DNA from: Candidatus Saccharimonadota bacterium
GTDB lineage: Bacteria > Patescibacteriota > Saccharimonadia > Saccharimonadales > Saccharimonadaceae
Length of the DNA: 13,168 nucleotides
Direction of reading: 5' to 3'
Assembly (NCBI GenBank): GCA_009777365.1
Contig: WRLZ01000010.1
Location: forward strand, 1 to 13,168
Every line of letters begins with the position of its first letter. Position 1 is the first letter of the stretch. Shown here in pieces: positions 527 to 11,590 of the stretch. The notes beneath the pieces were generated by a model, which was not told the origin of the DNA, ran no database searches, and saw only the letters and a list, made by a program, of their open reading frames with translations. The position numbers and the translations under genes are program-made.

Positions 527-659
527 GGATTCCTTAATTACTTTCCCTCTTTGCATCCGGAAGGTGTCGCATCTGTCGTTACAGATGCTCCAGCCATCCT
601 GACTCCATCAATCGTTATTGATTGGAGACATGCTCAGAGTGAATGTAATTAAGGAATCC
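527..659 (+). ncRNA. Y element 1: 133-bp three-way-junction inverted-repeat element
   Basis: A perfect 15-bp terminal inverted repeat (527-541 with 645-659) encloses two hairpins. The first is an 8-bp stem at 569-588 with loop CGTT. The second, at about 604-626, has a bulged T and also a CGTT loop. An unpaired GACATGCTCAG follows at 627-637. A second element at 7841-7974 (134 bp) has the same fold, the same two CGTY-loop hairpins and the identical 11-nt tail, but an unrelated closing stem. No ORF or start signal belongs to it. The plus strand is assumed because a T opposite G in the closing stem of the second copy would be a G-U pair in plus-strand RNA. Function unknown. Confidence 0.6.
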
Positions 660-690
660 AAATGTCCGCATATTATAGCTATACCAGATG

Positions 691-769
691 GCCTGCCGGT
701 TATGGGTAACTACTCCCATAACCGGTTGAGGCTGAGCTATACCCCTTGCGGGTATAACGGGGCGTTTTT
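691..769 (+). other. Two tandem strong hairpins downstream of Y element 1
   Basis: An 11-bp perfect stem (CCGGTTATGGG at 696-706 with 715-725) is extended outward by GCCT/AGGC. A second hairpin follows at 738-756 (TATACCC/GGGTATA, 5-nt loop), with a T-run at 765-769. The segment AGCTATACC flanks the first hairpin as a direct repeat. The last hairpin plus T-run could end a plus-strand transcript crossing the Y element, but the gap to the T-run is long for a classical intrinsic terminator. Confidence 0.5.
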
Positions 770-1115
770 ATGTTTACGCTCCTACCGTTATAATACTTAA
801 AAACCAAAAACTTTTATATCAAGAACGCGAAACTAACTAATGAATCGCACTTTGATCGTCGCCTTGCGCGACAAGTTTTTTACTTGAATTTGTTTTGGCA
901 TGTTTGCCCTTTCTGCTACGTTTTATTTGAGGCGGCGTTCGCTGCGCTCATATATTGGTAGCGGTTTTTATTTTGCTCGGGATTCCTTGGCTTTAGGCCA
1001 ATTTGTCCCATGTGTTGTTTTTTGCGCCTGGGCGCGAGGTTGGTTAAACAAAACGCGCAATTTAACAGGTGTGTGATGAACGCCCCCTGAAAACGGCGTT
1101 AACAAGGATTGTTTT
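770..1115. other. Intergenic spacer without a gene
   Basis: No ORF with a credible start is seen. It contains a REP-like tail fragment at 929-950 (GGCGGCGTTCGCTGCGCTCAT) and a short hairpin at about 1079-1100 (AACGCC/GGCGTT). The rest is AT-rich with no recognised signal. Confidence 0.5.
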
Positions 1116-1190
1116 AGGCTGCAGAACGCTCATGGAAAGTGTGATTTCCATTCGCTCCTAAAGGGCGGAACAAGTTCCGCGCTCCGCAGG
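1116..1190. repeat. REP-like palindromic repeat, copy R1
   Basis: A 49-bp segment (1116-1164) is nearly identical to 6472-6520. Its centre is the hairpin TGGAAA-GTGTGA-TTTCCA (1133-1150), followed by TTCGCTCCTAAAG. A second palindrome (GCGGAAC AA GTTCCGC) follows at about 1166-1181. It lies between rsmH and the ftsL-like gene. Confidence 0.75.
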
Positions 1191-1265
1191 CTTGTAGCTT
1201 ATGAGTCGTTGCAATTCAAGTCGTACAACGCCGCCGGTGAAGGCTGTTTTGGCTACATTATTAGA

Positions 1266-2189
1266 TTATATTTTCTCTGCTACTCGGAGTTTCGCACTTC
1301 TCGACCTTGGGTTCTCGGGGTCAGCTTCGGACCCTAAGATTGGGCGAGGAGTTAGGACTTTTAGATCGCTTTCCAGACCGCGACTACCATGTTCGCGGAA
1401 GAAGTCTTTGACCATGCGGTCTTCGAGACTGTGGAAAGAGATTATGCCAATTCGACCGCCTGGAGCTAAAAGTTCCAGCAGGAGCGGAAGGGTTTGGCCT
1501 AAAAGGTTTAGTTCGTCGTTGACGGCGATGCGGATGGCTTGATATATTCTAGGCAACATTCGCTTTGCGTGGAATGAATCCACGCTAGCTACTAAAGAGC
1601 CTTCGGCGTTCGCTTCGCTAACGCTGAAAACTTTTTTGCCAAAAATAGCTTTCGCAAGTTCGCCTGTTGTTTCGATTGGGCGGTTCTCGGTGATCTTTCG
1701 GGCAAACATCCTAGCTTGCCCTTCTCGCAGTTCACCATACTCTACGAAAATATCAATTAGTCCACTTTCACGCCAATTATTGACAATTGTGTGTGCCGAG
1801 AGTTTTTGTCCGCGATCCATACGCATATCGAGCGCTGAGTCGAAGCGGAACGAAAAACCACGTTCGGCGTTATCCAACTGTGGCGACGAAACTCCTAGAT
1901 CCATCAATATTACGTCAAATCTTTTTTCATCACTTACTAGAGAAGACACTGCACCATAAAAATCTTGATTTATAATCTTTACATCTCTGAATTCTCGCTT
2001 GAGATGTTCGATTGCAAAATCGTCGCGGTCTACTAATACCGCGTCTTTGTGGTTCTGTGTCTGCCTCAAAAACTCTTTCGCATGTCCTCCGTAGCCGGCT
2101 GTAAGATCCAAATATCTTTCGCCAGGCTTGGGGGCCATCACATCTATTGTTGATTTGAGTAACACTGGGGTATGATCTATTGAAGTCAT
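1266..2189 (-). CDS. rsmH: 16S rRNA (cytosine-1402-N4)-methyltransferase RsmH (MraW)
   Basis: RsmH methylates N4 of C1402 in the 30S P-site using S-adenosylmethionine. The 307-aa protein carries the family signatures in order: HTPVLLK near the N-terminus, the SAM-binding GYGGHAKEF (about 32-40), DLGVSSPQLD (97-106), ERGFSFRFDSALDMRMD (109-125), FHSLEDRMVKDFF (about 252-264) and the C-terminal PRSRSAKLR. Residues about 189-209, just before the conserved RxxQAIRIAVNDEL block, are longer than usual and are encoded by a REP-like palindromic repeat (see that entry). A promoter TTGGTA-17-TATAAT ends 6 nt before the ATG with no Shine-Dalgarno, so translation is probably leaderless. A second promoter at 2714-2742 also points into it through a long structured RNA. 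Identity is certain. Confidence 0.97.
   Translation of the reverse strand: MTSIDHTPVLLKSTIDVMAPKPGERYLDLTAGYGGHAKEFLRQTQNHKDAVLVDRDDFAIEHLKREFRDVKIINQDFYGAVSSLVSDEKRFDVILMDLGVSSPQLDNAERGFSFRFDSALDMRMDRGQKLSAHTIVNNWRESGLIDIFVEYGELREGQARMFARKITENRPIETTGELAKAIFGKKVFSVSEANAEGSLVASVDSFHAKRMLPRIYQAIRIAVNDELNLLGQTLPLLLELLAPGGRIGIISFHSLEDRMVKDFFREHGSRGLESDLKVLTPRPILGSEADPENPRSRSAKLRVAEKI
1551..1625. repeat. REP-like palindromic repeat inside rsmH, copy R4
   Basis: It has the same layout as the intergenic copies: AGGC-AACATTCGCT, a 7-bp hairpin (GCGTGGA/TCCACGC, about 1566-1584), then CTACTAAAGAGCCTTCGGCG and TTCGCT. The tail CTACTAAAGAGCCT is shared with the copy at 9350-9413. It is read in frame as about residues 189-213 of RsmH without breaking the gene. 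Confidence 0.75.
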
Positions 2190-2195
2190 AACCTA

Positions 2196-2224
2196 ATTAT
2201 ACACCTACATTCAAGATTTACCAA
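2196..2224 (-). promoter_or_regulatory. Promoter of rsmH, probably leaderless
   Basis: On the minus strand: -35 TTGGTA (2219-2224), 17-nt spacer, -10 TATAAT (2196-2201), and only 6 nt to the ATG at 2189. The start of transcription therefore falls at or next to the start codon. The -35 box overlaps the end of the long-range stem of the upstream structured RNA. Confidence 0.65.
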
Positions 2225-2707
2225 CTGATAGTTTCGCGTTTTTGTTTTTGTTTATTTTAGTTTTTAATCATCTGGCTTCCCTAGAATTGTCTTGGTAGAG
2301 AGTCAATTCTAGATTTGTGTGAAGCCGCATAGTTTTTGTGTTTAACTCTTGGTTAAACATAAGATCACACTTCGTTGAGAGACTTATGTGTGAAAAATTT
2401 GTGGGAGGTGTTTACTTTCGTTGAGGTGCGCCTGAATTTATTGTCCGGCAAGCCGAACAAATACAAAAAGAGAAAGTAGTGTTCCTTTTGTTTCGCCCAG
2501 GTTGTACGAACCCGAATTGAATTGATCGGGCGACAATGTGCGAAACTACCAGATGGTAAATCTCAAATGTTCTGTTAAATTGCTGTAGTCAAAATTGCCA
2601 TTGCACTGGATCAGTGTTAGCTTTGACTATAAATTGTTTTGTTTTTGTGAAGTGGTGTTTGTTTTTGACCAGCCTATTTATGTTGTTTGGTGGTCTTTCT
2701 GCCACTT
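2205..2707 (-). ncRNA. Large structured RNA, leader of rsmH or independent ncRNA
   Basis: Starting from the promoter at 2714-2742, the minus-strand transcript would hold many stems. A 5'-terminal stem is at 2702-2707/2650-2655. A stem at 2622-2629/2586-2593 encloses CACTG-GAT-CAGTG. An 18-position long-range stem pairs 2540-2557 with 2220-2237 (16 of 18 paired). Inside it are hairpins at 2281-2312 (9 bp), 2274-2279/2321-2326, 2339-2359 (8 bp), 2441-2460, 2413-2419/2472-2478 and 2493-2498/2528-2533. An H-type pseudoknot lies at 2357-2393 (ACATAAG/CTTATGT interleaved with TCACAC/GTGTGA). I could not find the conserved cores of RNase P RNA, tmRNA or SRP RNA. The strand is chosen from the promoter; many of these stems would form on either strand. 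Confidence 0.6.
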
Positions 2708-2713
2708 ATCCAG

Positions 2714-2742
2714 AGTATACATTAAAAAAATCATAAAGTCAA
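2714..2742 (-). promoter_or_regulatory. Promoter upstream of the structured RNA/rsmH
   Basis: On the minus strand: TTGACT (2737-2742), 17-nt spacer, TATACT (2714-2719). The predicted start near 2707 coincides with the first base of the first stem of the structured RNA. Confidence 0.7.
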
Positions 2743-2863
2743 GGGCTTTTTGGCGGGATTGTGGAAGAAATATGGTCTTATATAGATAGGTTATACAATA
2801 ATGTGGGGAAAACTCAAGTTTGGGGGTGGTGAGTTTACAGATGATACTGCCCTGCTCTAGGAT

Positions 2864-2890
2864 TTTTCCACATTTTTAATCTGTGGATAA
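2864..2890. other. Pair of inverted DnaA-box-like 9-mers
   Basis: TTTTCCACA (2864-2872) and TGTGGATAA (2882-2890, reverse of the canonical TTATCCACA) face each other 9 bp apart. A related TGTGGGGAA lies at 2802-2810. No dnaA or dnaN is in the window, so an origin role is only a possibility; the pair also forms a weak hairpin. Confidence 0.3.
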
Positions 2891-3391
2891 CTTTCGGGGG
2901 TTGGTGAAAATGTGGTGGAATGATGGAAGCATATTATAATAATTTTGGATATTTGTAAAGTTGTTGTTGCGTTCTTTTTGTGGTGTGGTTTGGGTTGACA
3001 ATTTGTGCGGTTCGTGGTGTGGGGACTTTGGGGATGGTGTTGACTTTTGGGGAGAATGTTGTGGAATGTATATTGACCTAGCTGGGGTTTTGTTGTGGAA
3101 TGGTGGATATTGATCTGGTGGGGGGCGTGAGGAAAGCGCCTTGTCATAGACGAAGGCGCTTGTGGGTTTGGTTCGGATTAGGCAAATGCAAGACGTTTGA
3201 TTCTCTCGAAGAAAGTCGGGCGTAAGAGATTCTGGAGACGGAGAGCCATGGGGCTCGAAGGGAGGCATCTTCCCCGAGTTTGCCGAAGGCCGTGTTTGTC
3301 GCATTCTGCGTAGAAAGCGAGATCTGCCGTTGTCATGGAAACTCTTGGGCCAGACGAAATGCTGTCCCAGACTCTGAGTTGCGTTTTTCAT
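2876..3391 (-). CDS. Hypothetical small protein behind leader A (reading frame uncertain)
   Basis: Initiation is convincing: AGGAGG sits 8 nt before the ATG at 3391, behind a strong promoter and the conserved leader A. The 171-aa frame is otherwise odd. The first 80 or so residues have ordinary composition. The C-terminal half is low-complexity Pro/Ser/Thr/His/Asn encoded by the GT-rich spacer type seen elsewhere in the window, so it may be read-through of a lost stop. A 9-bp hairpin (3134-3161) lies inside the frame. A shifted frame offers a cleaner 52-aa ORF (3178-3336, starting MTTADLAFYA) whose TAA falls just before that hairpin. Either the gene is frameshifted or the short overlapping ORF is the real one. 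No family recognised. Confidence 0.35.
   Translation of the reverse strand: MKNATQSLGQHFVWPKSFHDNGRSRFLRRMRQTRPSANSGKMPPFEPHGSPSPESLTPDFLRENQTSCICLIRTKPTSAFVYDKALSSRPPPDQYPPFHNKTPARSIYIPQHSPQKSTPSPKSPHHEPHKLSTQTTPQKERNNNFTNIQNYYNMLPSFHHIFTNPRKLSTD
3134..3161 (-). terminator. Strong hairpin, possible terminator
   Basis: A perfect 9-bp stem AAGCGCCTT/AAGGCGCTT with a 10-nt loop, followed on the minus strand by TTTCC. It comes just after the stop of the 52-aa alternative frame (3178-3180), as a terminator would, but the T-run is very short. Confidence 0.35.
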
Positions 3392-3479
3392 AGTATTACC
3401 TCCTGTTTTGTAGGCCTCTTTGGGCTGGTTTGGGATAGGGTTAAAAACTTGTGATAGTTACTATGGTGTCCGAACCTGG

Positions 3480-3628
3480 TAAAATACGGGCAGTAAAGTA
3501 GGTGTGGGATTATTTTTTGGGAAAAATAATCCCCTGTATCTACAGGGTCTCGAATATTTTACTATTCGTCTTCCTGTAAAAGCCTATCTACTGCTAATTG
3601 CAGGAGCACATTTCTGTGATCCTACCTT
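3480..3628 (-). promoter_or_regulatory. Structured leader A (riboswitch-like), homologous to leader B
   Basis: Minus-strand order of elements: HP1 (3602-3623, GNRA loop GAAA, one internal mismatch); a conserved ATAGGC; an ACAGG segment (3573-3578); HP2 (3551-3568, CGAATA/TATTCG); CCCTGTA (3541-3547), which pairs either back to ACAGG or forward to ACAGGGG (3531-3537); then a 12-bp hairpin (3506-3533) that shares the GGG; and finally ACCTA. Leader B at 6550-6672 has the same order with different stem bases. The overlapping pairings give two mutually exclusive folds, as in a cis-regulatory switch. About 90 nt more separate it from the start codon. Confidence 0.65.
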
Positions 3629-3631
3629 TCT

Positions 3632-3660
3632 ATTATAGCATACTTTGAGTAAAAAGTCAA
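3632..3660 (-). promoter_or_regulatory. Promoter of leader A transcript
   Basis: On the minus strand: TTGACT (3655-3660), 17-nt spacer TTTTACTCAAAGTATGC, TATAAT (3632-3637). The spacer is identical to that of the leader B promoter and nearly identical to those at 6861, 8219 and 11553. Confidence 0.85.
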
Positions 3661-3695
3661 CCCTTTCCTTACGGAAAGTGTTCTTAATCTCTCCT

Positions 3696-3742
3696 TGCTC
3701 AGATGAAAATGTAAAACATTTTCATCATTCGCTTCGTCGGAT
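3696..3742. repeat. REP-like palindrome, copy R7
   Basis: A perfect 10-bp hairpin ATGAAAATGT-AAA-ACATTTTCAT (3703-3725) is flanked by TTGCTCAG and CATTCGCTTCG. This is the GCTCA-[palindrome]-TTCGCT pattern of the other copies, with an unrelated stem sequence. Confidence 0.55.
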
Positions 3743-3744
3743 TA

Positions 3745-3885
3745 TCAATAGGTTTGGGGCTTTTTAGGTGGGTTTTGGGTAAAAATGTGCCTTTTTTGGG
3801 GTGTTTTGTGGGTGTTTACAGGGGTGGGGTTTTTGACAAAATTGGGGGATTGTGGCGTGTTTTGGGTGGTCTGCTCTGCTCTGGG
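3745..3885. repeat. GT-rich spacer block, similar to 6715-6840
   Basis: No gene is seen. Words shared in order with 6715-6840 include GTGCC, TTTTGTGGG, TTTACAG, TTTTGAC, AAATTGGG and CTGCTCT. Both blocks lie upstream (minus sense) of a leader A/B promoter. ORFs here are artefacts of Gly/Trp/Phe-rich or Pro/His-rich translation of GT-rich DNA. Confidence 0.5.
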
Positions 3886-3944
3886 CTATGGTTTTCGTGG
3901 GGTGGGGGTCCATCACGCTTATGTTGTAATTTTCGAGTATTTCA

Positions 3945-3974
3945 TTGACCATCCATATATATGGATGGTAGAAT
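3945..3974 (+). promoter_or_regulatory. Promoter with a perfect palindrome filling the spacer (operator)
   Basis: TTGACC (3945-3950), 18-nt spacer, TAGAAT (3969-3974). A perfect 20-bp palindrome, CCATCCATATATATGGATGG (3949-3968), overlaps the -35 box and runs exactly to the -10 box. That is the classic position for a dimeric repressor that blocks RNA polymerase. The transcript would start near 3981 and run into the structured leader and 24-codon ORF. Confidence 0.6.
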
Positions 3975-3979
3975 AATGG

Positions 3980-4100
3980 AGGTTGGTAAGTTCTCCGATT
4001 AGTTCTAATCGGGCCTAGGGACAGGCCCCACCTCGATCCTGTAGGCTTCACTAGACAGTATTTCTAGAATATATATGTGTGGAGCCTAGGAAGGAGGAGT
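3980..4100 (+). promoter_or_regulatory. Structured leader of the 24-codon ORF
   Basis: GAGGT (about 3981) pairs with ACCTC (about 4031) and encloses two hairpins: CCGATTA-GTTC-TAATCGG and GGGCCT-AGGGAC-AGGCCC. Next comes a stem TAGGCTTCA/TGGAGCCTA (about 4042-4090) enclosing CTAGA-CAGTATT-TCTAG, then AGGAAGGAGGAG as ribosome-binding site. Four or more stems starting right at the predicted +1 look like a regulatory leader. It matches no riboswitch consensus I could recall. Confidence 0.5.
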
Positions 4101-4101
4101 A

Positions 4102-4176
4102 ATGAAGAAGATTTCAGTCTTTTGGGGTTTACTTTCATTTGAATTCTACCCGAGAAACAAACGAACCAAGCAGTAA
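4102..4176 (+). CDS. 24-aa micro-ORF with very strong RBS
   Basis: ATG at 4102 follows AAGGAGGAG at optimal spacing and encodes 24 residues: a Lys-Lys start, a short hydrophobic stretch with Trp (ISVFWGLLSF), then a basic tail ending KRTKQ. It is read from the palindrome-controlled promoter through a structured leader. It may be a leader peptide, a small membrane-associated protein or a toxin-like peptide; the sequence is too short to decide. An opposing promoter at 4243-4271 would produce RNA antisense to it. Confidence 0.5.
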   Translation: MKKISVFWGLLSFEFYPRNKRTKQ

Positions 4177-4242
4177 AGCTTAGATCTTAACCAACCATAT
4201 ATTCAAGTAGCTCGCCTTAGCAGGGTTGCTTGAATTAATGTA

Positions 4243-4271
4243 ATTATACACCAGGTGGATTGTGAAGTCAA
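4243..4271 (-). promoter_or_regulatory. Minus-strand promoter, antisense to the 24-codon ORF
   Basis: TTGACT (4266-4271), 17-nt spacer, TATAAT (4243-4248): one of the best promoter matches in the window. No credible minus-strand gene lies between it and leader A. The product would be an RNA that begins with the hairpin ATTCAAG...CTTGAAT (about 4203-4236) and runs antisense through 4176-4102. Confidence 0.65.
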
Positions 4272-4277
4272 GAGAGA

Positions 4278-4952
4278 TTAGATAACAGGAGTGATTTTGC
4301 CTAGGAGAGCGTATTTTTCGGTGAAGATTTGGTCGATGGTGGTGTTGGTTTTGAGCATGTATTGGCGGACTACGAAATAGCCGGCGCTGTAGCCTGACCA
4401 TCTGGGGAGGCCGAGTTTTTTATCGCCTTTTATAAAAATTTTATAGTGGTCAAATTTTTTACCTTGGAGGTCTTTGCTTAGTGTTTTTAGGATTTTTTGG
4501 TTGATGTTGTCGGATCGCTTGGTGATGGTTTGGACGAAGACGTCGGGCTTGTAGCGTTTGTCCTTGGCTGCCCTCTCTTGGAAAGCCGTGGCTAGGCCTT
4601 CCATAATCATTTCGTCCAGTAGTGAGCTGGTCCATTCGTTGTTGCGCTGCCAGCGGGCGGAGTGGCAGAGTTCGTGGCATAGCATTTGGAAGATGTCGCG
4701 GGTTTTGATCTTCTTTTTCATGGTAGGGTCGAGAGTCATGACGATAAAACTACTGGTGTGTGCCCTGCCGCCGATGTGGGTTTCGGGGATGGTGTCGCCT
4801 AGGGCGCTGGTAAAAATTATGTCGATTGGGCGCTTGATCTTTAGTTTGGGCACGGCATATTTCTCGGCAATCCTGACAGCACGTTTGATCCGCCTGGAAA
4901 ACCTTTTTAGATCGCCACTGGCATTGGCAATATAAAGCCGTAATTTTCCCAT
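4278..4952 (-). CDS. DUF2268-type putative zinc metalloprotease
   Basis: A 224-aa soluble protein with the metal-binding, catalytic HELCH motif (93-97) and, about 20 residues on, MEGLATAFQE, whose Glu118 fits the third zinc ligand of gluzincin-like proteases. A substrate-groove-like stretch GGRAHTSSFIVMTL precedes the motif at about 61-74. This arrangement matches DUF2268 predicted Zn-dependent proteases; the substrate is unknown. There is no signal peptide. The start is fixed by a promoter whose -10 TATAAT ends 9 nt before the ATG, and there is no Shine-Dalgarno, so the mRNA is probably leaderless. The gene appears monocistronic. Confidence 0.75.
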   Translation of the reverse strand: MGKLRLYIANASGDLKRFSRRIKRAVRIAEKYAVPKLKIKRPIDIIFTSALGDTIPETHIGGRAHTSSFIVMTLDPTMKKKIKTRDIFQMLCHELCHSARWQRNNEWTSSLLDEMIMEGLATAFQERAAKDKRYKPDVFVQTITKRSDNINQKILKTLSKDLQGKKFDHYKIFIKGDKKLGLPRWSGYSAGYFVVRQYMLKTNTTIDQIFTEKYALLGKITPVI

Positions 4953-4961
4953 AATGGGTAT

Positions 4962-4990
4962 ATTATATCATAGAGTATCAGAAAAGTCAA
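4962..4990 (-). promoter_or_regulatory. Promoter of the DUF2268 gene, leaderless
   Basis: On the minus strand: TTGACT (4985-4990), 17-nt spacer, TATAAT (4962-4967), then 9 nt to the ATG. The +1 falls at or within 3 nt of the start codon. Confidence 0.8.
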
Positions 4991-5008
4991 TGTGTGGTCG
5001 GGTGGGGT

Positions 5009-5042
5009 TGGAAAAGAAAGACCCGGCTGGTGGCCGGGTTGT
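5009..5042 (-). terminator. Intrinsic terminator of the two-TM protein gene
   Basis: Minus strand: ACCCGGC/GCCGGGT stem (5021-5027/5033-5039) followed by TCTTTCTTTT. It sits about 40 bp after the stop at 5078. Confidence 0.8.
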
Positions 5043-5077
5043 TTGTAGGTTGCATCGGTTGAGGCCGATGTTGGGAA

Positions 5078-5737
5078 TTATTCTTCTTCATCCATGTTCA
5101 TAGCTGAGATGCGTTGTTTCAAAAACCCTTGTAGGTTTTGATAAAAATCTCCTTGGTCTTTGCATAGCTCGCAAAACTCATCCAAAAGCTGGATGTAGTT
5201 TTCGCGCTCTAGGAGATATGTGTCCATCAACTCCTTTCTCTTTTCGCTTTCTTTAGTGATGTTTTCTTGGGCTTCTGCGGCCTGTTTGTTGATTCTTTCT
5301 TGAATCATGCCGATGAGCCATGCTTGCGCTTTGCTAGAGAAAAACAGAACGAAGCTGGCGGCAAGTAAACCAAAAACGAAGGGCGCGGAAATTATCCAAG
5401 CTTGAACTGGAACGTCCATGTGGGCCCGCATAAATAGCAGGATAGAAGCGAAAAGCAAGGGTAAGGCAAAAAGTGATCGCTCAATGAGCCTCAACCACTT
5501 CTTGGCTTTTGCCAAACTGCTTTGGCCACTTGTGTAGAGTCTGGTTCCAGCTGTTTCCTCGAAATGCTTTTCTATACCCTCCTTATCAATGGGCATATTA
5601 TGACCGTAAAGCTCCAGGTGGAGCTTATTGGCTTTTTCATATGCCTGCACTAATTTTGTTCCAAGCTCTTTGGCTTTTTCGGTTGCTGATGTTAAATTCT
5701 CAAGAAGCGTTGAATCATTGACAAATGGTTTGCTCAT
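5078..5737 (-). CDS. Two-TM membrane protein with long coiled coils, unknown function
   Basis: 219 aa. An N-terminal amphipathic, helix-rich segment (1-45) and a polar linker lead to TM1 (about 88-104) and TM2 (about 113-134), joined by a short loop. A long Glu/Lys-rich coiled coil follows (about 145-205), ending in an acidic DEEE tail. Both soluble parts should be on the same side of the membrane, probably cytoplasmic. The start chosen is ATG 5737 because AAGGAGAG lies 8 nt upstream; a GTG three codons earlier overlaps the spacer. The -10 candidate TATAAT (about 5758-5763) has no clear -35 box. No family recognised; a structural or scaffold role is a guess from shape. Confidence 0.7.
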   Translation of the reverse strand: MSKPFVNDSTLLENLTSATEKAKELGTKLVQAYEKANKLHLELYGHNMPIDKEGIEKHFEETAGTRLYTSGQSSLAKAKKWLRLIERSLFALPLLFASILLFMRAHMDVPVQAWIISAPFVFGLLAASFVLFFSSKAQAWLIGMIQERINKQAAEAQENITKESEKRKELMDTYLLERENYIQLLDEFCELCKDQGDFYQNLQGFLKQRISAMNMDEEE

Positions 5738-5817
5738 AAAAATCACTCTCCTTCTATTATATTAAAAAGATTGGACTAATGAAGAATAAATTGTATAAAG
5801 TGCGGATCTTCACGACC

Positions 5818-5853
5818 AACTAGTACCCTTGGGGTGGTCCAAGGATACTAGTT
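5818..5853. other. Strong hairpin upstream of the two-TM protein gene
   Basis: AACTAGTA then CCTTGG pair with CCAAGG and TACTAGTT across a 6-nt loop (14 bp with one mismatch). It lies next to the REP-like copy at 5868. Confidence 0.5.
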
Positions 5854-5867
5854 GATGGTGAAGTTTG

Positions 5868-5920
5868 GAGGCTGCATTCGCTTCAGTCGGAGTGAATCTT
5901 CCTTCGGCGCTTCGCTCATG
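5868..5920. repeat. REP-like repeat, copy R5
   Basis: AGGCTGCATTCGCT at the head, as in the copy at 9350, and CTTCGGCG-CTTCGCTCATGAG at the tail, as in the other copies. The central palindrome is weak here. Confidence 0.5.
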
Positions 5921-5932
5921 AGAACAGGGTAA

Positions 5933-5997
5933 GAGGCCTCGCGGGGCAAGCTTTTTGTCGGGTTAAACCAGACTAAATTAGCTTGGCGCGAGACCTC
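5933..5997. other. Imperfect long inverted repeat
   Basis: Arm 5933-5952 and arm 5980-5997 are complementary apart from two small internal mismatches. It lies just past the 3' end of the 82-aa gene and could stop its transcript, but no T-run follows. Confidence 0.4.
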
Positions 5998-6021
5998 AAT
6001 TTGGTATCTTCTTAGATCCCA

Positions 6022-6270
6022 TCAGCATCCGCTGTAAGCGTTCACTGCACGTGTCCCGTATAAGGGGTTAAGCTGGGGCTTCAAGAAAGCCGAGGGGAAG
6101 AGTTCTTCCTTTTCGCCGGTTTCTTTGTTTATGACCGTCTTTTTGTACAAGATTGTAGCAATTTTGCTGATTTCTTGGAATTCAGAACGGGTCAATTCAC
6201 GCTCCAGCTGGAGTGCTTCAAGTTCGGATAAGCGAACTTTCGCTTCGTATTTGGACATTTTCTTTTTCAT
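6022..6270 (-). CDS. 82-aa charged hypothetical protein behind leader B
   Basis: A small soluble protein. Residues 1-40 are a Lys/Glu/Leu-rich helix (MSKYEAKVRLSELEAL..., with ELTRSEFQEISKIA), followed by a KKTVINKETGEKEE hinge and a Pro/Tyr-containing tail ending NAYSGC. The start at 6270 is chosen for AAGGAGG 9 nt upstream; an in-frame ATG at 6324 has no ribosome-binding site and lies within a hairpin. The gene sits about 400 nt behind the leader B promoter, so expression probably depends on that structured leader. No family recognised. Confidence 0.7.
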   Translation of the reverse strand: MKKKMSKYEAKVRLSELEALQLERELTRSEFQEISKIATILYKKTVINKETGEKEELFPSAFLKPQLNPLYGTRAVNAYSGC

Positions 6271-6358
6271 AACAGGCACCTCCTTGTTGTGGCGGGACAT
6301 TGCCCGGCTCTTTGAGCCATCCATTCAACTATAGCCTTGCTATCGATTTTGGCTTGTC

Positions 6359-6411
6359 GTTTTTGCCGTGCAAGGGGCGTCATTTATAGACCCCCACTGG
6401 ACGGCAAAAAC
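6359..6411 (-). other. Compound 11-bp hairpin in the 5' leader of the 82-aa gene
   Basis: GTTTTTGCCGT (6359-6369) pairs perfectly with ACGGCAAAAAC (6401-6411). Inside it GGGG-C-GTC (6374-6381) pairs with GACCCCC (6389-6395). It lies 90-140 nt before the start codon, in the leader B transcript. Confidence 0.6.
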
Positions 6412-6471
6412 AACTTTGGTGCTGTTATTTGGATAAAGAAGATTGTTAGTAAAGTGCTGGCAGTTCTTTGT

Positions 6472-6545
6472 AGGTTGCAGAACGCTAATGGAAAGTGTGA
6501 TTTCCATTCGCTCCTAAAGAGCCTGCGGCGTTCGCTACGCTCACA
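6472..6545. repeat. REP-like palindromic repeat, copy R2
   Basis: Nearly identical to R1 (1116-1164) through the TGGAAA-GTGTGA-TTTCCA hairpin (6489-6506). It continues into AAAGAGCCTGCGGCGTTCGC, the tail shared with the copies at 9350 and 1551. It lies within the leader B transcript. Confidence 0.75.
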
Positions 6546-6549
6546 TTCA

Positions 6550-6672
6550 ATAGGTTGGGGATTTTTAGAATAAAAATCCCCTGTGTACACAGGGTGAATA
6601 TTACTATCCATTTCCTGTATACGGCCTATTTTTCTGTTTAAGGTGTAGGGTTAATTGCTTAACTCTACATTT
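6550..6672 (-). promoter_or_regulatory. Structured leader B, homologous to leader A
   Basis: Minus strand: HP1 (6644-6669, TGTAG-A-GTTAA, loop GCAA); ATAGGC; ACAGG (6614-6618); HP2 (6595-6610, TGGATA/TATTCA, loop GTAA); CCCTGT; ACAGGGG (6578-6584/6589-6594 on plus); an 11-bp hairpin (6557-6581); then ACCTATT, which can pair with AATAGG. Stem bases differ from leader A while pairing is kept, and both HP1 loops are GNRA. The central ACAGG/CCCTGT/ACAGGGG segments give the same two alternative pairings. Confidence 0.65.
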
Positions 6673-6674
6673 CT

Positions 6675-6703
6675 ATTGTAGCATACTTTGAGTAAAAAGT
6701 CAA
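6675..6703 (-). promoter_or_regulatory. Promoter of leader B transcript
   Basis: On the minus strand: TTGACT (6698-6703), 17-nt spacer TTTTACTCAAAGTATGC, TACAAT (6675-6680). Confidence 0.85.
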
Positions 6704-6714
6704 GGGTTTTGGCT

Positions 6715-6840
6715 TATTTTGTGCCCTTTTTGATGCTTTTTGTGGGATTTTACAGTGGTAGGATATTTTGACGAAATTGGGTGGATATGAGAATAAAATG
6801 GTGTTTTATGTAGTTTTGTGGTGGATTGCCCTGCTCTGAC
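6715..6840. repeat. GT-rich spacer block, similar to 3745-3885
   Basis: A non-coding block that shares ordered words with 3745-3885. It ends in GCCCTGCTCT (6828-6837), a 10-mer also found at 2849-2858 and 11433-11442. Confidence 0.45.
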
Positions 6841-6860
6841 ACGGAAGAGGTGGGAAAGGC

Positions 6861-6889
6861 TTGATTTTTTACTAGAAGTGTGCTAGAAT
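6861..6889 (+). promoter_or_regulatory. Promoter of rplS
   Basis: TTGATT (6861-6866), 17-nt spacer TTTTACTAGAAGTGTGC, TAGAAT (6884-6889), 24 nt before the start codon. It belongs to the spacer-conserved promoter family of this window. Confidence 0.8.
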
Positions 6890-6913
6890 ATTAAGGTAAT
6901 ATAGAGGAAGAAT

Positions 6914-7384
6914 ATGTTTGAGTTACTAAAGACTATTGGTGATAAACAAAAAAAGGCGTCGGTTGTTGATCTTCGATCTGTTGATACTGTAAAGGTTCAT
7001 CAGAAGATTCGCGAAGGCGATAAGTTTCGTATTCAGGTTTTTGAGGGTGTGGTGATAAACTTGACCCAAAAAAACTCACATACGGCGAGGTTTACTGTTC
7101 GGAAGATTGCTTCTGGTGTGGGAGTTGAGAAGTCTTATCTGCTGCATAGTCCATTGATCGACAAGATTGAGATTGTGGCGCGTGGTAAGGTTCGACGAAA
7201 CTACCTTTCGTACCTCAGGGAACGAAGTGGTAAGAGTGCGCGACTTGTTGGAAAAGAGTTTGATCATGCGGCGGTTAATGCTGTGGATGAAGTTGTTCCA
7301 GAGGTGGTTGCGGAAGTAAAGGCTGAGCCTGCAAAGGAAGAAACTCCAGTAGCGGAAGCAAAGAGCGAAGAAAAAGCTAATTAG
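6914..7384 (+). CDS. rplS: 50S ribosomal protein L19
   Basis: L19 lies at the 30S/50S interface and helps form intersubunit bridges. The 156-aa product has the L19 core at 1-115: an N-terminal helix, then VHQKIREGDKFRIQVFEGVVI, RFTVRKIASGVGVEKSYLLHSP and KVRRNYLSYLRERSGKSARL, all typical of the SH3-like fold. Residues about 118-156 are an Ala/Glu/Val-rich acidic extension beyond the usual length of about 115 residues. GAGGAAG precedes the ATG. It is followed by an intrinsic terminator hairpin and then yraN. Confidence 0.97.
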   Translation: MFELLKTIGDKQKKASVVDLRSVDTVKVHQKIREGDKFRIQVFEGVVINLTQKNSHTARFTVRKIASGVGVEKSYLLHSPLIDKIEIVARGKVRRNYLSYLRERSGKSARLVGKEFDHAAVNAVDEVVPEVVAEVKAEPAKEETPVAEAKSEEKAN

Positions 7385-7409
7385 TATTAAAAAATAAGGC
7401 TAATGAAAA

Positions 7410-7437
7410 AAAGCGTGGGTAGAACCACGCTTTATTG
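7410..7437 (+). terminator. Hairpin between rplS and yraN
   Basis: AAAGCGTGG (7410-7418) pairs with CCACGCTTT (7425-7433) across a 6-nt loop, followed by ATTGATT. It is a terminator for rplS or a partial attenuator, since yraN begins 20 nt on with no separate promoter visible. Confidence 0.65.
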
Positions 7438-7458
7438 ATTGGAGAGACGAGGAATGAG

Positions 7459-7830
7459 ATGGTTAAGGCTGAAATGACAACTACAAATAAGGGTCGGAAG
7501 GCTGAATTGGCTGTGGTTTCGCATCTTGAGAGCTTGGGGCATAAGATTTTGAGCCAGAATTATCGGACGAGGCATTATGAGATTGATGTTGTGAGCAAGC
7601 TTGGGACGGATTATGGCAATAAGATATTCTTTACAGAGGTGAAATATAGGAAGAGCTCGGCGCATGGCGATGGGATTAGTCATATTACGCCGAAAAAATT
7701 GCAGAAGATGCGGTTTGCGGCGGAGGATTTTTTGGATAGGAGGAGGCTTCGGGAGCCGGCGGCGTTGGCGGCGGCGAGTGTGGCTGGGGAGGATTTTAAG
7801 GTTCAGGAGTGGTTTGAGATTGAGGAGTAG
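7459..7830 (+). CDS. yraN: UPF0102 (YraN family) endonuclease-like protein
   Basis: 123 aa. An N-terminal KGRKAELAVVSHLESLGHKILSQNYR and then YEIDVVS...IFFTEVKYRKSSAHG give the GxxxE, EID and ExK pattern of the restriction-endonuclease-like fold seen in UPF0102. A C-terminal helix follows (KLQKMRFAAEDFL), as in the family. The biochemical role of YraN proteins is not settled. ATG 7459 is preferred because GAGG lies 6 nt upstream; ATG 7474 is a possible alternative and TTG 7435 is unlikely, being within the terminator. It is close behind rplS, as in other bacteria where yraN sits in a ribosomal-protein/RNase H neighbourhood. The Ala-rich AALAAASVAGED near the end is unusual. Confidence 0.85.
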   Translation: MVKAEMTTTNKGRKAELAVVSHLESLGHKILSQNYRTRHYEIDVVSKLGTDYGNKIFFTEVKYRKSSAHGDGISHITPKKLQKMRFAAEDFLDRRRLREPAALAAASVAGEDFKVQEWFEIEE

Positions 7831-7840
7831 CTGATATAGC

Positions 7841-7974
7841 TAATCCCCTAAAACGATTCCGCCTTCGCATACGGACAGGTGTTCATCTGTCGTCACATAT
7901 GAACAGCCTTGTCCTGACACCAACTGTCGTTACAGTTTGGTGACATGCTCAGGGCGGAATGTTTTGGGGGATTA
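7841..7974 (+). ncRNA. Y element 2: 134-bp three-way-junction inverted-repeat element
   Basis: Closing stem 7841-7863/7953-7974 (22 bp with one G-U and one bulged G). Inside are an arm GGACA-GG-TGTTCAT/ATGAACA-GCC-TTGTCC (about 7873-7914), capped by TGT-CGTC-ACA, and a hairpin CACCAACTGT-CGTT-ACAGTTTGGTG (about 7918-7942) with a bulged T. The tail GACATGCTCAG (7942-7952) completes it. The core aligns end to end with 551-637, and the total length is within one base of Y element 1, but the closing stem is unrelated in sequence. It lies just after yraN. Confidence 0.65.
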
Positions 7975-8005
7975 TTAACTCCATCTCCCACATAGCCCCA
8001 TCGAA

Positions 8006-8200
8006 TCCTCTGGGTGGTCGGGGGCGTATAATGATTCTGTTAATGATGCCGACGGACCCTGGTTTCATAGAGGTGGTAGTGGCTGGTCTTGGAACGCTGC
8101 TCGTACTAGCATAGAGGCTCTAGGTTATACAACGGCTGGCGGCGGTCTGAGAACTGGTTTTCGTGGGGAAATCAGACTTTTTTACTACTGTGAATCATGA
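8006..8200 (+). pseudogene. C-type-lectin/FGE-like C-terminal gene fragment
   Basis: An open frame without a start: a TAA precedes it in frame at about 7975. It encodes SSGWSGAYNDSVNDADG, then PWFHRGGSGWSWN, a Leu-Gly-Tyr stretch and GGGLRTGFRGE, ending at TGA 8198. The PW(F)xRGG...GFRG pattern is that of the C-terminal part of the CLec/formylglycine-generating-enzyme-like fold common in phage tail and bacterial surface proteins. A second fragment at 10700-10882 shares SSGWSG, PWFxRGG and GFRG. Both lack the N-terminal part of any parent protein, so I read them as remnants or silent cassettes. Confidence 0.55.
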
Positions 8201-8218: not shown

Positions 8219-8247
8219 TTGACTTTTTACTCAAAGTGTGCTATAAT
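8219..8247 (+). promoter_or_regulatory. Promoter of the PgeF-like gene
   Basis: TTGACT (8219-8224), 17-nt spacer TTTTACTCAAAGTGTGC, TATAAT (8242-8247): a near-consensus promoter of the spacer-conserved family. The 70-nt leader has a small hairpin (AGACA/TGTCT). Confidence 0.88.
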
Positions 8248-8318
8248 ATAAGGTAGACAGTAGCGTATGTTGTCTAATTAAGGAGTAAAATCTTTGTATC
8301 TTGAGAGGAAGTGTTACT

Positions 8319-9413: not shown

Positions 9414-9525
9414 CGATTGGTTGCTATGGAAGGAACCATGAAGAGCCAGAGAAGAACGAACCAGTGGACGTCACTAGCCACCCAGAGGATTCGGGAGAGG
9501 GGTTATCCGATAATGAGGTTATTTG

Positions 9526-10660: not shown

Positions 10661-10699
10661 CGGCTTCAACCTCAATCTAAGACAATAACTCTTACGAAA

Positions 10700-10882
10700 T
10701 CCTCTGGGTGGTCGGGGGTGCGTGCTCTTTCGTTTGACGATGGGTTTCCATGGTTTATCCGCGGTGGCGATTCAGTTTCTGCCGTCACCTCGGGTGTTGA
10801 GTCTATTAGCTATAATGCTGGTGGTGTTCATGGTCTAATCGGTTTTCGTGGGGGTTATTCCTCCTCCTTGCCTTTTAGATAA
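10700..10882 (+). pseudogene. Second CLec/FGE-like C-terminal gene fragment
   Basis: The frame encodes SSGWSGVRALSFDDG, PWFIRGGDSVSAVTSG, VESISYNAGG and GLIGFRGG, ending SLPFR-stop. It has the same landmarks as 8006-8200 and nearly identical DNA over the first 20 or so bases. The frame stays open back to 10574, but upstream it translates the 10585-10660 hairpin, so there is no genuine N-terminal part. Its last 28 bp overlap the end of the convergent 116-aa gene. I read it as a remnant or a silent cassette. Confidence 0.55.
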
Positions 10883-11552: not shown

Positions 11553-11581
11553 TTGACTTTTTGGGCAAAGTGTGCTACACT
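11553..11581 (+). promoter_or_regulatory. Promoter of the micro-ORF transcript
   Basis: TTGACT (11553-11558), 17-nt spacer TTTTGGGCAAAGTGTGC, TACACT (11576-11581), 9 nt before an ATG. It belongs to the spacer-conserved family. Confidence 0.8.
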
Positions 11582-11590
11582 AGGGGTAGA

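Follow-up and report, generated by a model that had tools for sequence, protein, structure and literature searches.

Dispersed palindromic DNA elements living in frame within genes of a Candidatus Saccharibacteria family

Must a sequence that folds strongly, and whose stems covary, be an RNA gene? The question is raised by two Y-shaped sequences, E1 and E2, in a 13,168-nucleotide stretch of Candidatus Saccharimonadota DNA (the window), which is one whole contig (C10; WRLZ01000010.1) of a draft genome, 64% complete, that comprises 88 contigs and 645,058 bases. An initial annotation of the window proposed the pair as a candidate new structured RNA. Here, we present evidence that E1 and E2 are, with a probability of about 0.84, copies of a non-autonomous palindromic DNA element spread in one Candidatus Saccharibacteria family. 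By sequence comparison the copies can be shown to form a dispersed multi-copy family with a conserved two-hairpin core of ~70-93 bp, enclosed by outer arms of ~22 bp whose sequence is specific to each locus and yet self-complementary. They are present or absent at orthologous sites, reside in frame in housekeeping genes in either orientation and in all six frames, and carry their cores in both orientations at one site; cores of the same genome often resemble one another more closely than do cores at orthologous sites. We are highly confident in describing them as palindromic DNA elements that are dispersed and reside in frame inside genes, and it is likely that whole copies move or once moved, as opposed to a spread by conversion between old sites.

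A DNA search picked up more partial copies in the genome that contains the window. Seven full copies from this genome were aligned (A2) and, with a hand-drawn structure, gave a covariance model (R1, the seed model); a wider model, R2, was built from 41 copies. The two window elements are laid out as follows.

527 to 659, plus strand: first element copy (E1), in the intergenic space that separates a small minus-strand open reading frame (ORF; 37-462) from rsmH (1266-2189, minus strand); R1 match at C10:534-653, 101.6 bits
527 to 550, plus strand: 5' arm of the E1 outer stem, pairing with 636-659, 15 bp perfect at the foot
553 to 633, plus strand: two-hairpin core of E1, junction helix 553-556 with 630-633 (GCAT/ATGC)
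559 to 599, plus strand: hairpin P2 of E1, loop CGTT at 577-580
603 to 627, plus strand: hairpin P3 of E1 with a bulged T, loop CGTT at 613-616
627 to 637, plus strand: GACATGCTCAG in E1, a sequence with three occurrences in this genome
636 to 659, plus strand: 3' arm of the E1 outer stem, from the fold
7841 to 7974, plus strand: element copy 2 (E2), starting 10 bp past the stop of a UPF0102 (yraN-type) gene (7435-7830); R1 match at C10:7848-7968, 130.8 bits
7841 to 7865, plus strand: 5' arm of the E2 outer stem, with one bulged G
7867 to 7948, plus strand: two-hairpin core of E2, junction helix 7867-7870 with 7945-7948 (GCAT/ATGC)
7873 to 7914, plus strand: hairpin P2 of E2, loop CGTC at 7891-7894
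7918 to 7942, plus strand: hairpin P3 of E2 with a bulged T, loop CGTT at 7928-7931
7951 to 7974, plus strand: 3' arm of the E2 outer stem, from the fold

Both elements lie where the initial annotation placed them, and its description was correct in nearly all details. Folding bears out the perfect 15-bp closing repeat of E1, the two hairpins with CGTT or CGTC loops, the bulged T in the second hairpin of each element, and the identical GACATGCTCAG in both (627-637 and 7942-7952). The closing repeat of E2, given as 22 bp with one G-U, consists instead of 14 bp, one bulged G and 10 bp, including two T-G pairs; the elements, called unlinked, are indeed separated by 7.2 kb but lie on one contig. 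RNA folding of the given strand yields -59.8 kcal/mol (z -8.1) for E1 and -68.2 kcal/mol (z -9.2) for E2, the reverse strands reach z -10.4 and -10.1, respectively, and in each of these four tests 0 of 200 shuffles folded as well. No part of the window matched Rfam at gathering scores, the best weak matches to the E1 and E2 regions having E values of 2.2 or worse.

The elements are not confined to the window. At E values of 5.2e-4 or lower, R1 locates 11 distinct copies in the window's own genome, the weakest on contig C9 (24.5 bits), four further rows being the reverse strand of the same copies. Across the family, R1 matched 28 of 394 genomes, the window's own included. R2 matched 39 of the 40 genomes of one genus, g2, with 1-33 copies each, among them all 26 of good quality. 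Across the order it matched 106 of 392 genomes, belonging to 9 of 157 genera and all to the window's family, as did every one of the eight matched in a phylum sample of 379. Outside this family there were thus no matches in the order and phylum samples; samples of more than 40 genomes (order, phylum and family) were scored with strict filters, which makes such absences soft. Among the 11 copies of the window's own genome (G000), the one on contig C46 (L022; G000:C46) is split in its second hairpin by a stretch of unrelated sequence and may represent a nested insertion.

For comparison between copies, 80 stretches of 3-17 kb were fetched around matches and 112 copies were located in them (A5); with the 41 copies behind R2 these gave 151 distinct copies, after the removal of one identical element (153 to 152) and of one copy fetched twice (L033, the same as L197). 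The 26 shared sites and 90 same-site pairs given below were counted after that removal, and the double row still stands in the tallies of arm and core identity pairs, end consensus, wobble cells, stop codons and gene families. The seven-copy alignment A2 has 87.0% paired cells, compared with 37-46% in slid controls; two-sided changes appear in 19 pairs, a number reached by 0 of 500 shuffles, and of five covariation measures four were reached by 0 of 500 shuffles and the fifth, pair types, by 26 of 500. The 112 copies, in an alignment fitted to the model, have 87.2% standard-pair cells against 41-51% in slid controls and a covariation score of 0.569 against 0.152 for shuffles; two-sided changes occur in 40 of 44 pairs, a count that discriminates poorly since shuffles average 36.7. 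The covariation of the element stems is beyond chance, and fold is kept more than sequence, as had been proposed from two copies; the search with a covariance model that was suggested at the time has found homologues with compensatory changes, both in the window's genome and in its family. A loop of the form TCGTYA occurs at least once in 83 of the 112 copies from other genomes, and some of the others have CGCC in that loop. As the following paragraphs describe, strong covariation alone is no proof of an RNA gene.

The outer arms, tested on 145 of the 151 copies (elements too close to a stretch end were excluded), pair with each other and hardly with those of any other copy. The arms of one copy are complementary over a median of 22 bp (quartiles 20 and 26), compared with 1 bp for swapped arms, and in 140 of the 145 the match lies above the 99th percentile of arms swapped between copies. 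Among the pairs listed, two copies in one genome (L134 and L135) are identical at 75 of 76 core positions and at 8 of 32 in the left arm, and two on a single stretch (L148) at 75 of 77 and 5 of 23. With regard to the conserved terminal inverted repeats expected of miniature transposable elements, the arms are complementary within each copy, and between copies only a weak end consensus is shared, which we read as AATAGTGCTTT before the core and AAAGCACTATTT after it and which is nearly whole in the copy L189.

The majority of copies reside within genes. An element was counted as in-ORF if it lay inside an open frame of at least 150 amino acids with at least 60 nt on each side, which holds for 104 of the 151 distinct copies, the other 47 lying elsewhere. 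These 104 run along the gene in 52 cases and opposite to it in 52, and use all six frames (30, 27, 16, 11, 11 and 9 copies). They fall into at least 38 gene families (by single linkage, with TypA and LepA merged) and 52 sites, 26 of which have more than one copy. Ten of the proteins carrying an insert score at or above the NCBIfam cut-off for their expected equivalog: ObgE, TypA, PrmC, ArgS, PheT, TruB, Der, TsaD, IleS and LepA. Of ten further ones, Pfam names eight (asparagine synthase, Dus, RNA pseudouridylate synthase, tRNA_Me_trans, GatB, UvrB, a DNA polymerase III clamp-loader subunit and aminotransferase V) and has no match for two. Element copies account for inserts in core proteins of Saccharibacteria. 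Relative to empty orthologues, all 27 in-ORF insertions have a net length divisible by 3, which reading through the insert would demand; the four non-ORF insertions measure 99, 89, 113 and 99 nt. With all six frames in use, the element does not encode a conserved peptide. In one RecX protein an AlphaFold model places most of the insert, including residues 102-111 and 113-123 with a predicted local distance difference test (pLDDT) score below 50, between the confident helices 88-100 and 127-143. Among the matches listed, database homologues of TatD and RecX carry varied inserts at a single position, some of which can be read as the element in differing frames. Obg of genus g2 (30 loci) has two insert hot spots. 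At the second, in the linker before the PTISL motif (L056-L085), other recurring insert peptides occur, such as SKEASRDEYGTVIPAQPRLADEEF, suggesting further insert families in this genus. A selection for cores open in all six frames was considered and rejected.

At shared sites the core varies. Both core orientations occur at 11 of the 26 shared in-ORF sites (24 of 90 pairs); between L176 and L184, for example, the core is flipped while similar arms remain in place. At a site downstream of a gene that we read as rplL, species share homologous arms that differ in compensatory ways, around a core in forward or reverse orientation; together with a run of T, these arms resemble a terminator. Such a run of T stands at the stem foot in 7 of 41 non-ORF copies. 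In L192 (~7953-8040), at the rplL-type site, the arms are kept and the core is cut down. Arms with little or no core are likewise seen in L209 (1-294) and, among the matches listed, in the proteins P0003, P0021 and P0115; since sites seem to keep their arms in this way, core loss inside kept arms probably happens. In genus g2, where fetched copies were compared and paralogues thus sampled in part, 67 copies have both a same-site orthologue and a paralogue in their own genome, and in 40 of these the core is nearer to the paralogue than to the best orthologue.

These observations bear directly on whether the fold belongs to an RNA. A structured non-coding RNA at each copy, be it a trans-acting RNA, a riboswitch or a ribozyme, would agree with the strong fold and the covariation. 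A fold acting as the RNA of one strand is expected to show much more G-U than A-C, the latter being G-U on the other strand; among 4323 cells of the 112 copies we counted 102 G-U and 72 A-C, a slight excess in favor of RNA that leaves the G-U position cited by the initial annotation a weak sign of a plus-strand transcript. The proposal of a discrete structured RNA is not supported; against it stand the multi-copy, in-frame residence of the element within many unrelated ORFs, the equal use of both gene strands where a constant strand would be expected, the two orientations at one site, the lack of an Rfam match in the window, and a copy number that ranges from 0 to 33 among species of one genus. 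A structured RNA gene was rejected on strand use and in-gene location, and we regard a structured non-coding RNA encoded at each copy as very improbable. Because strand use in genes is even and the G-U and A-C counts are so close, we take the fold to act at the DNA level and leave slight room for effects through RNA; of the functions that had been left open, the folded single-stranded DNA site comes nearest, and a terminator-like role is seen at one site, the rplL-type site. It is even less probable that the element is removed at the RNA level, as a small intron or by translational bypass, to leave proteins without an insert. Known translational bypass elements do have a stable hairpin, as this element does, but all 27 in-ORF insertions have net lengths that are multiples of 3 and the frames are open, neither of which a spliced or bypassed element would need, and either orientation occurs.

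Two models for the origin of the arms are compatible with a mobile palindromic DNA element, and each is an unlikely choice. In one, insertion of the core is accompanied by a duplication, in inverted form, of ~22 bp from one flank. The lengths of 31 elements, for which only empty loci with flank alignments reaching within 25 nt of the site were used, are consistent with it: the core between the outer arms measures 70-83 nt and the arms a median of 22, and the net insertion exceeds the core by a median of 19 nt, or 0.79 of an arm. For 28 of the 31, the folded palindrome spans more sequence than the net insertion supplies (by hand sum, some empty loci possibly being remnants), so that part of the stem would be host sequence. 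One arm can be read as native in obgE, tsaD, ileS and pheT, and near-identical cores with unrelated arms, such as those listed above, fit as well. Such one-sided duplication was first favored after obgE and pheT, but the larger test was mixed, with the native arm being the element's left in 19, its right in 12 and undecided in 28 of 59 copies (7 and 6 at a stricter threshold). It is also contradicted by L189, a 117-bp insertion past a stop codon, both arms of which arrived with the insert, since its two close empty relatives agree and neither holds a palindrome; an insert in the RNA pseudouridylate synthase gene on L142 likewise holds both arms.

In the other model, about as doubtful, palindromes such as terminators or quasi-palindromes exist first, and the core moves into and out of them as a cassette. 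One search for close filled and empty pairs among genomes G270, G301 and G282 gave four informative sites, L189 and three at which an empty relative is palindromic. L180 has 99 bp between the stop codons of convergent genes, one of which reads like recR, and the empty relative G270 has a natural palindrome there; L179 (ileS) has 114 bp relative to G282, whose empty site holds a short palindrome, the empty site of G270 having none; and L187 is a 129-bp insertion whose empty site in G301 is palindromic. The empty rplL-type site in L209 and the short-core remnants within kept arms (L192 and, among the matches listed, TatD homologues) also favor a cassette. Yet palindromic empty sites may themselves be remnants of core loss, the empties of L189 lack a palindrome, and at 53 empty loci (25 element sites, 15 of the loci being Obg) the palindrome score has a median percentile of 0.62, with 6 at 0.95 or above; a general preference for pre-existing hairpins is therefore unsupported. 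A tsaD gene without an insert (L148, 6078-7145) has at its empty site the quasi-palindrome AATCAGAATAGTATTCCTGATT, which resembles the element end consensus and may be either a remnant or a preferred target.

How would such an element persist and spread? We infer that the copies are or were mobile, and that the fold, as DNA of either strand, would act in a step that moves or copies the element. Within genes a copy would survive by adding whole codons at a tolerant place, where it would simply be translated. Template switching by DNA polymerase between the inverted arms could keep them complementary, flip the core in place and sometimes delete most of it. The available parts of two papers describe template switching between inverted repeats as homogenizing the arms and inverting the spacer (PMC8604942) and as creating and mending hairpins (PMC8794818), and its role in maintaining the arms and flipping the cores here is plausible. 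A bolder and distinctly tentative proposal is a new mode of DNA mobility, in which palindromic docks dispersed in genes would exchange the two-hairpin core as a cassette that can also flip or be lost inside a dock. These docks would persist across species as cores are replaced by same-genome copies, the stems would be completed with host codons by copying the flank of one strand, and no dedicated transposase would be needed, template switching in replication and recombination at hairpins sufficing. Least credible of the explanations considered is an element like the repetitive extragenic palindromic (REP) sequences, mobilized by a resident Y1 transposase (of the RAYT or IS200 type) acting on hairpins with an extrahelical T. 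The bulged T recalls such hairpins, but Y1_Tnp passes the cut-off in 3 of the 42 genomes that carry the element and in 4 of the 25 that do not. Reverse transcriptase is found in 20 of the 42 and 6 of the 25 (five of these 25 being called element-free by the seed model only), and several element-rich genomes (G221, G298, G301, G209 and G279) have neither enzyme above cut-off. Since neither tracks the element, both were rejected as necessary agents.

Several observations weigh against a mobile palindromic DNA element. No mobilizing enzyme was found, Y1 being the only transposase family searched and target-site duplications lying outside the search. No transposition event was seen, all filled and empty pairs in the comparison coming from different species, and template switching is deduced from its products, with no single event reconstructed. 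The orthologous core is as close as, or closer than, the same-genome copy in 27 of the 67 comparisons, so that part of the distribution is plain vertical descent. For stop codons in in-ORF cores the value is 2.86, compared with 2.63 when shuffled, and since stops are not depleted the core is not tuned for openness in all frames. The slight excess of G-U over A-C, finally, leaves room for some role at the RNA level.

The window comes from a saccharibacterium, as the initial annotation had taken it to, its protein relatives being Candidatus Saccharibacteria wherever a name is given. Saccharibacteria appears in the title of 6 of the 80 loci kept for the window's RsmH; four of these 6 derive from the gut of goat or yak and one from groundwater. 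The window yielded no tRNA or tmRNA. The flanks of E1 and E2 have no orthologous site in the single other genome of this genus, where only a promoter-like motif was matched. This motif, TTGACTTTTTACTCAAAGTGTGCTATAATA, lies at 8219-8249 and 11553-11583 on the plus strand, at 3630-3660 and 6673-6703 on the minus strand and, more weakly, at 6860-6890 (plus); its spacer is conserved in addition to both hexamers, which may reflect a regulator or a special sigma preference, and the other genome has 10 similar places. A repeated fragment, CGAATCCTCTGGGTGGTCGG, occurs at 8002-8048, 9458-9493 (minus strand) and 10698-10742 and at ~186-205 of L003, some copies being close to elements; it reads like the C-terminal end of a surface protein (AIFESSGWSG...). 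A second dispersed repeat, at 1112-1166 and 6468-6522 (93% identity over 55 bp) and also at 1588-1622 and 6510-6544, is possibly another element family.

The Saccharibacteria element can be set beside four known systems. REP sequences and bacterial interspersed mosaic elements (BIME), which are associated with REP-associated tyrosine transposases (RAYT), are dispersed hairpins with extrahelical bases. The present element shares these traits, but it is larger, lies in coding sequence and has no association with Y1_Tnp. Prokaryotic miniature inverted-repeat transposable elements (MITEs; ERIC, RUP, Correia and others) are described, in the portion of the source available, as short, non-autonomous, dispersed and sometimes intragenic (PMC10969869), all of which applies here as well; the Saccharibacteria element differs in its merely weak end consensus, in having no known parent transposon (among transposases, Y1 was searched) and in that about two thirds of the copies examined lie inside genes. 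In nematomorph mitochondria, long inverted repeats occur inside functional genes, and the accessible part of the report offers template switching as a possible keeper of arm likeness (PMC6649704). There, as far as that part goes, both arms encode conserved protein regions with no shared inserted core apparent, whereas in Saccharibacteria a homologous core recurs across genes and species.

The nearest kind, judged by comparing descriptions, is the Rickettsia palindromic elements (RPE), which the available parts of two sources describe as short palindromes of ~150 bp in many copies, partly inserted in frame in unrelated metabolic genes (PMC10969869; PMC6649704). Short palindromes in many copies, carried in frame in ordinary unrelated genes, are found here too. 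The host phylum is other than that of Rickettsia, the core has two hairpins with TCGTYA loops in most copies, its orientation at a given site can differ, and the Saccharibacteria element offers no counterpart to the conserved peptide described for RPE. The arms are locus-specific and complementary, whereas RPE are reported, in the part available, to lose repeat identity over time (PMC6649704). As the comparison did not extend to sequence, the phyla differ and the peptide is lacking, we do not call the two the same family. Among the matches listed in a search of the open literature (titles and abstract openings, most subscription papers lying outside), there was no report of such elements in Saccharibacteria or Patescibacteria, and this palindromic family has apparently not been described before. 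In the literature covered, as far as the parts available go, mobile palindromes within genes are known mainly from Rickettsia; the elements described here add another large system, hosted by reduced genomes in a different phylum. With one site filled, empty, flipped or remnant in different species, the old question of how such elements spread, and how genes tolerate them, becomes testable.

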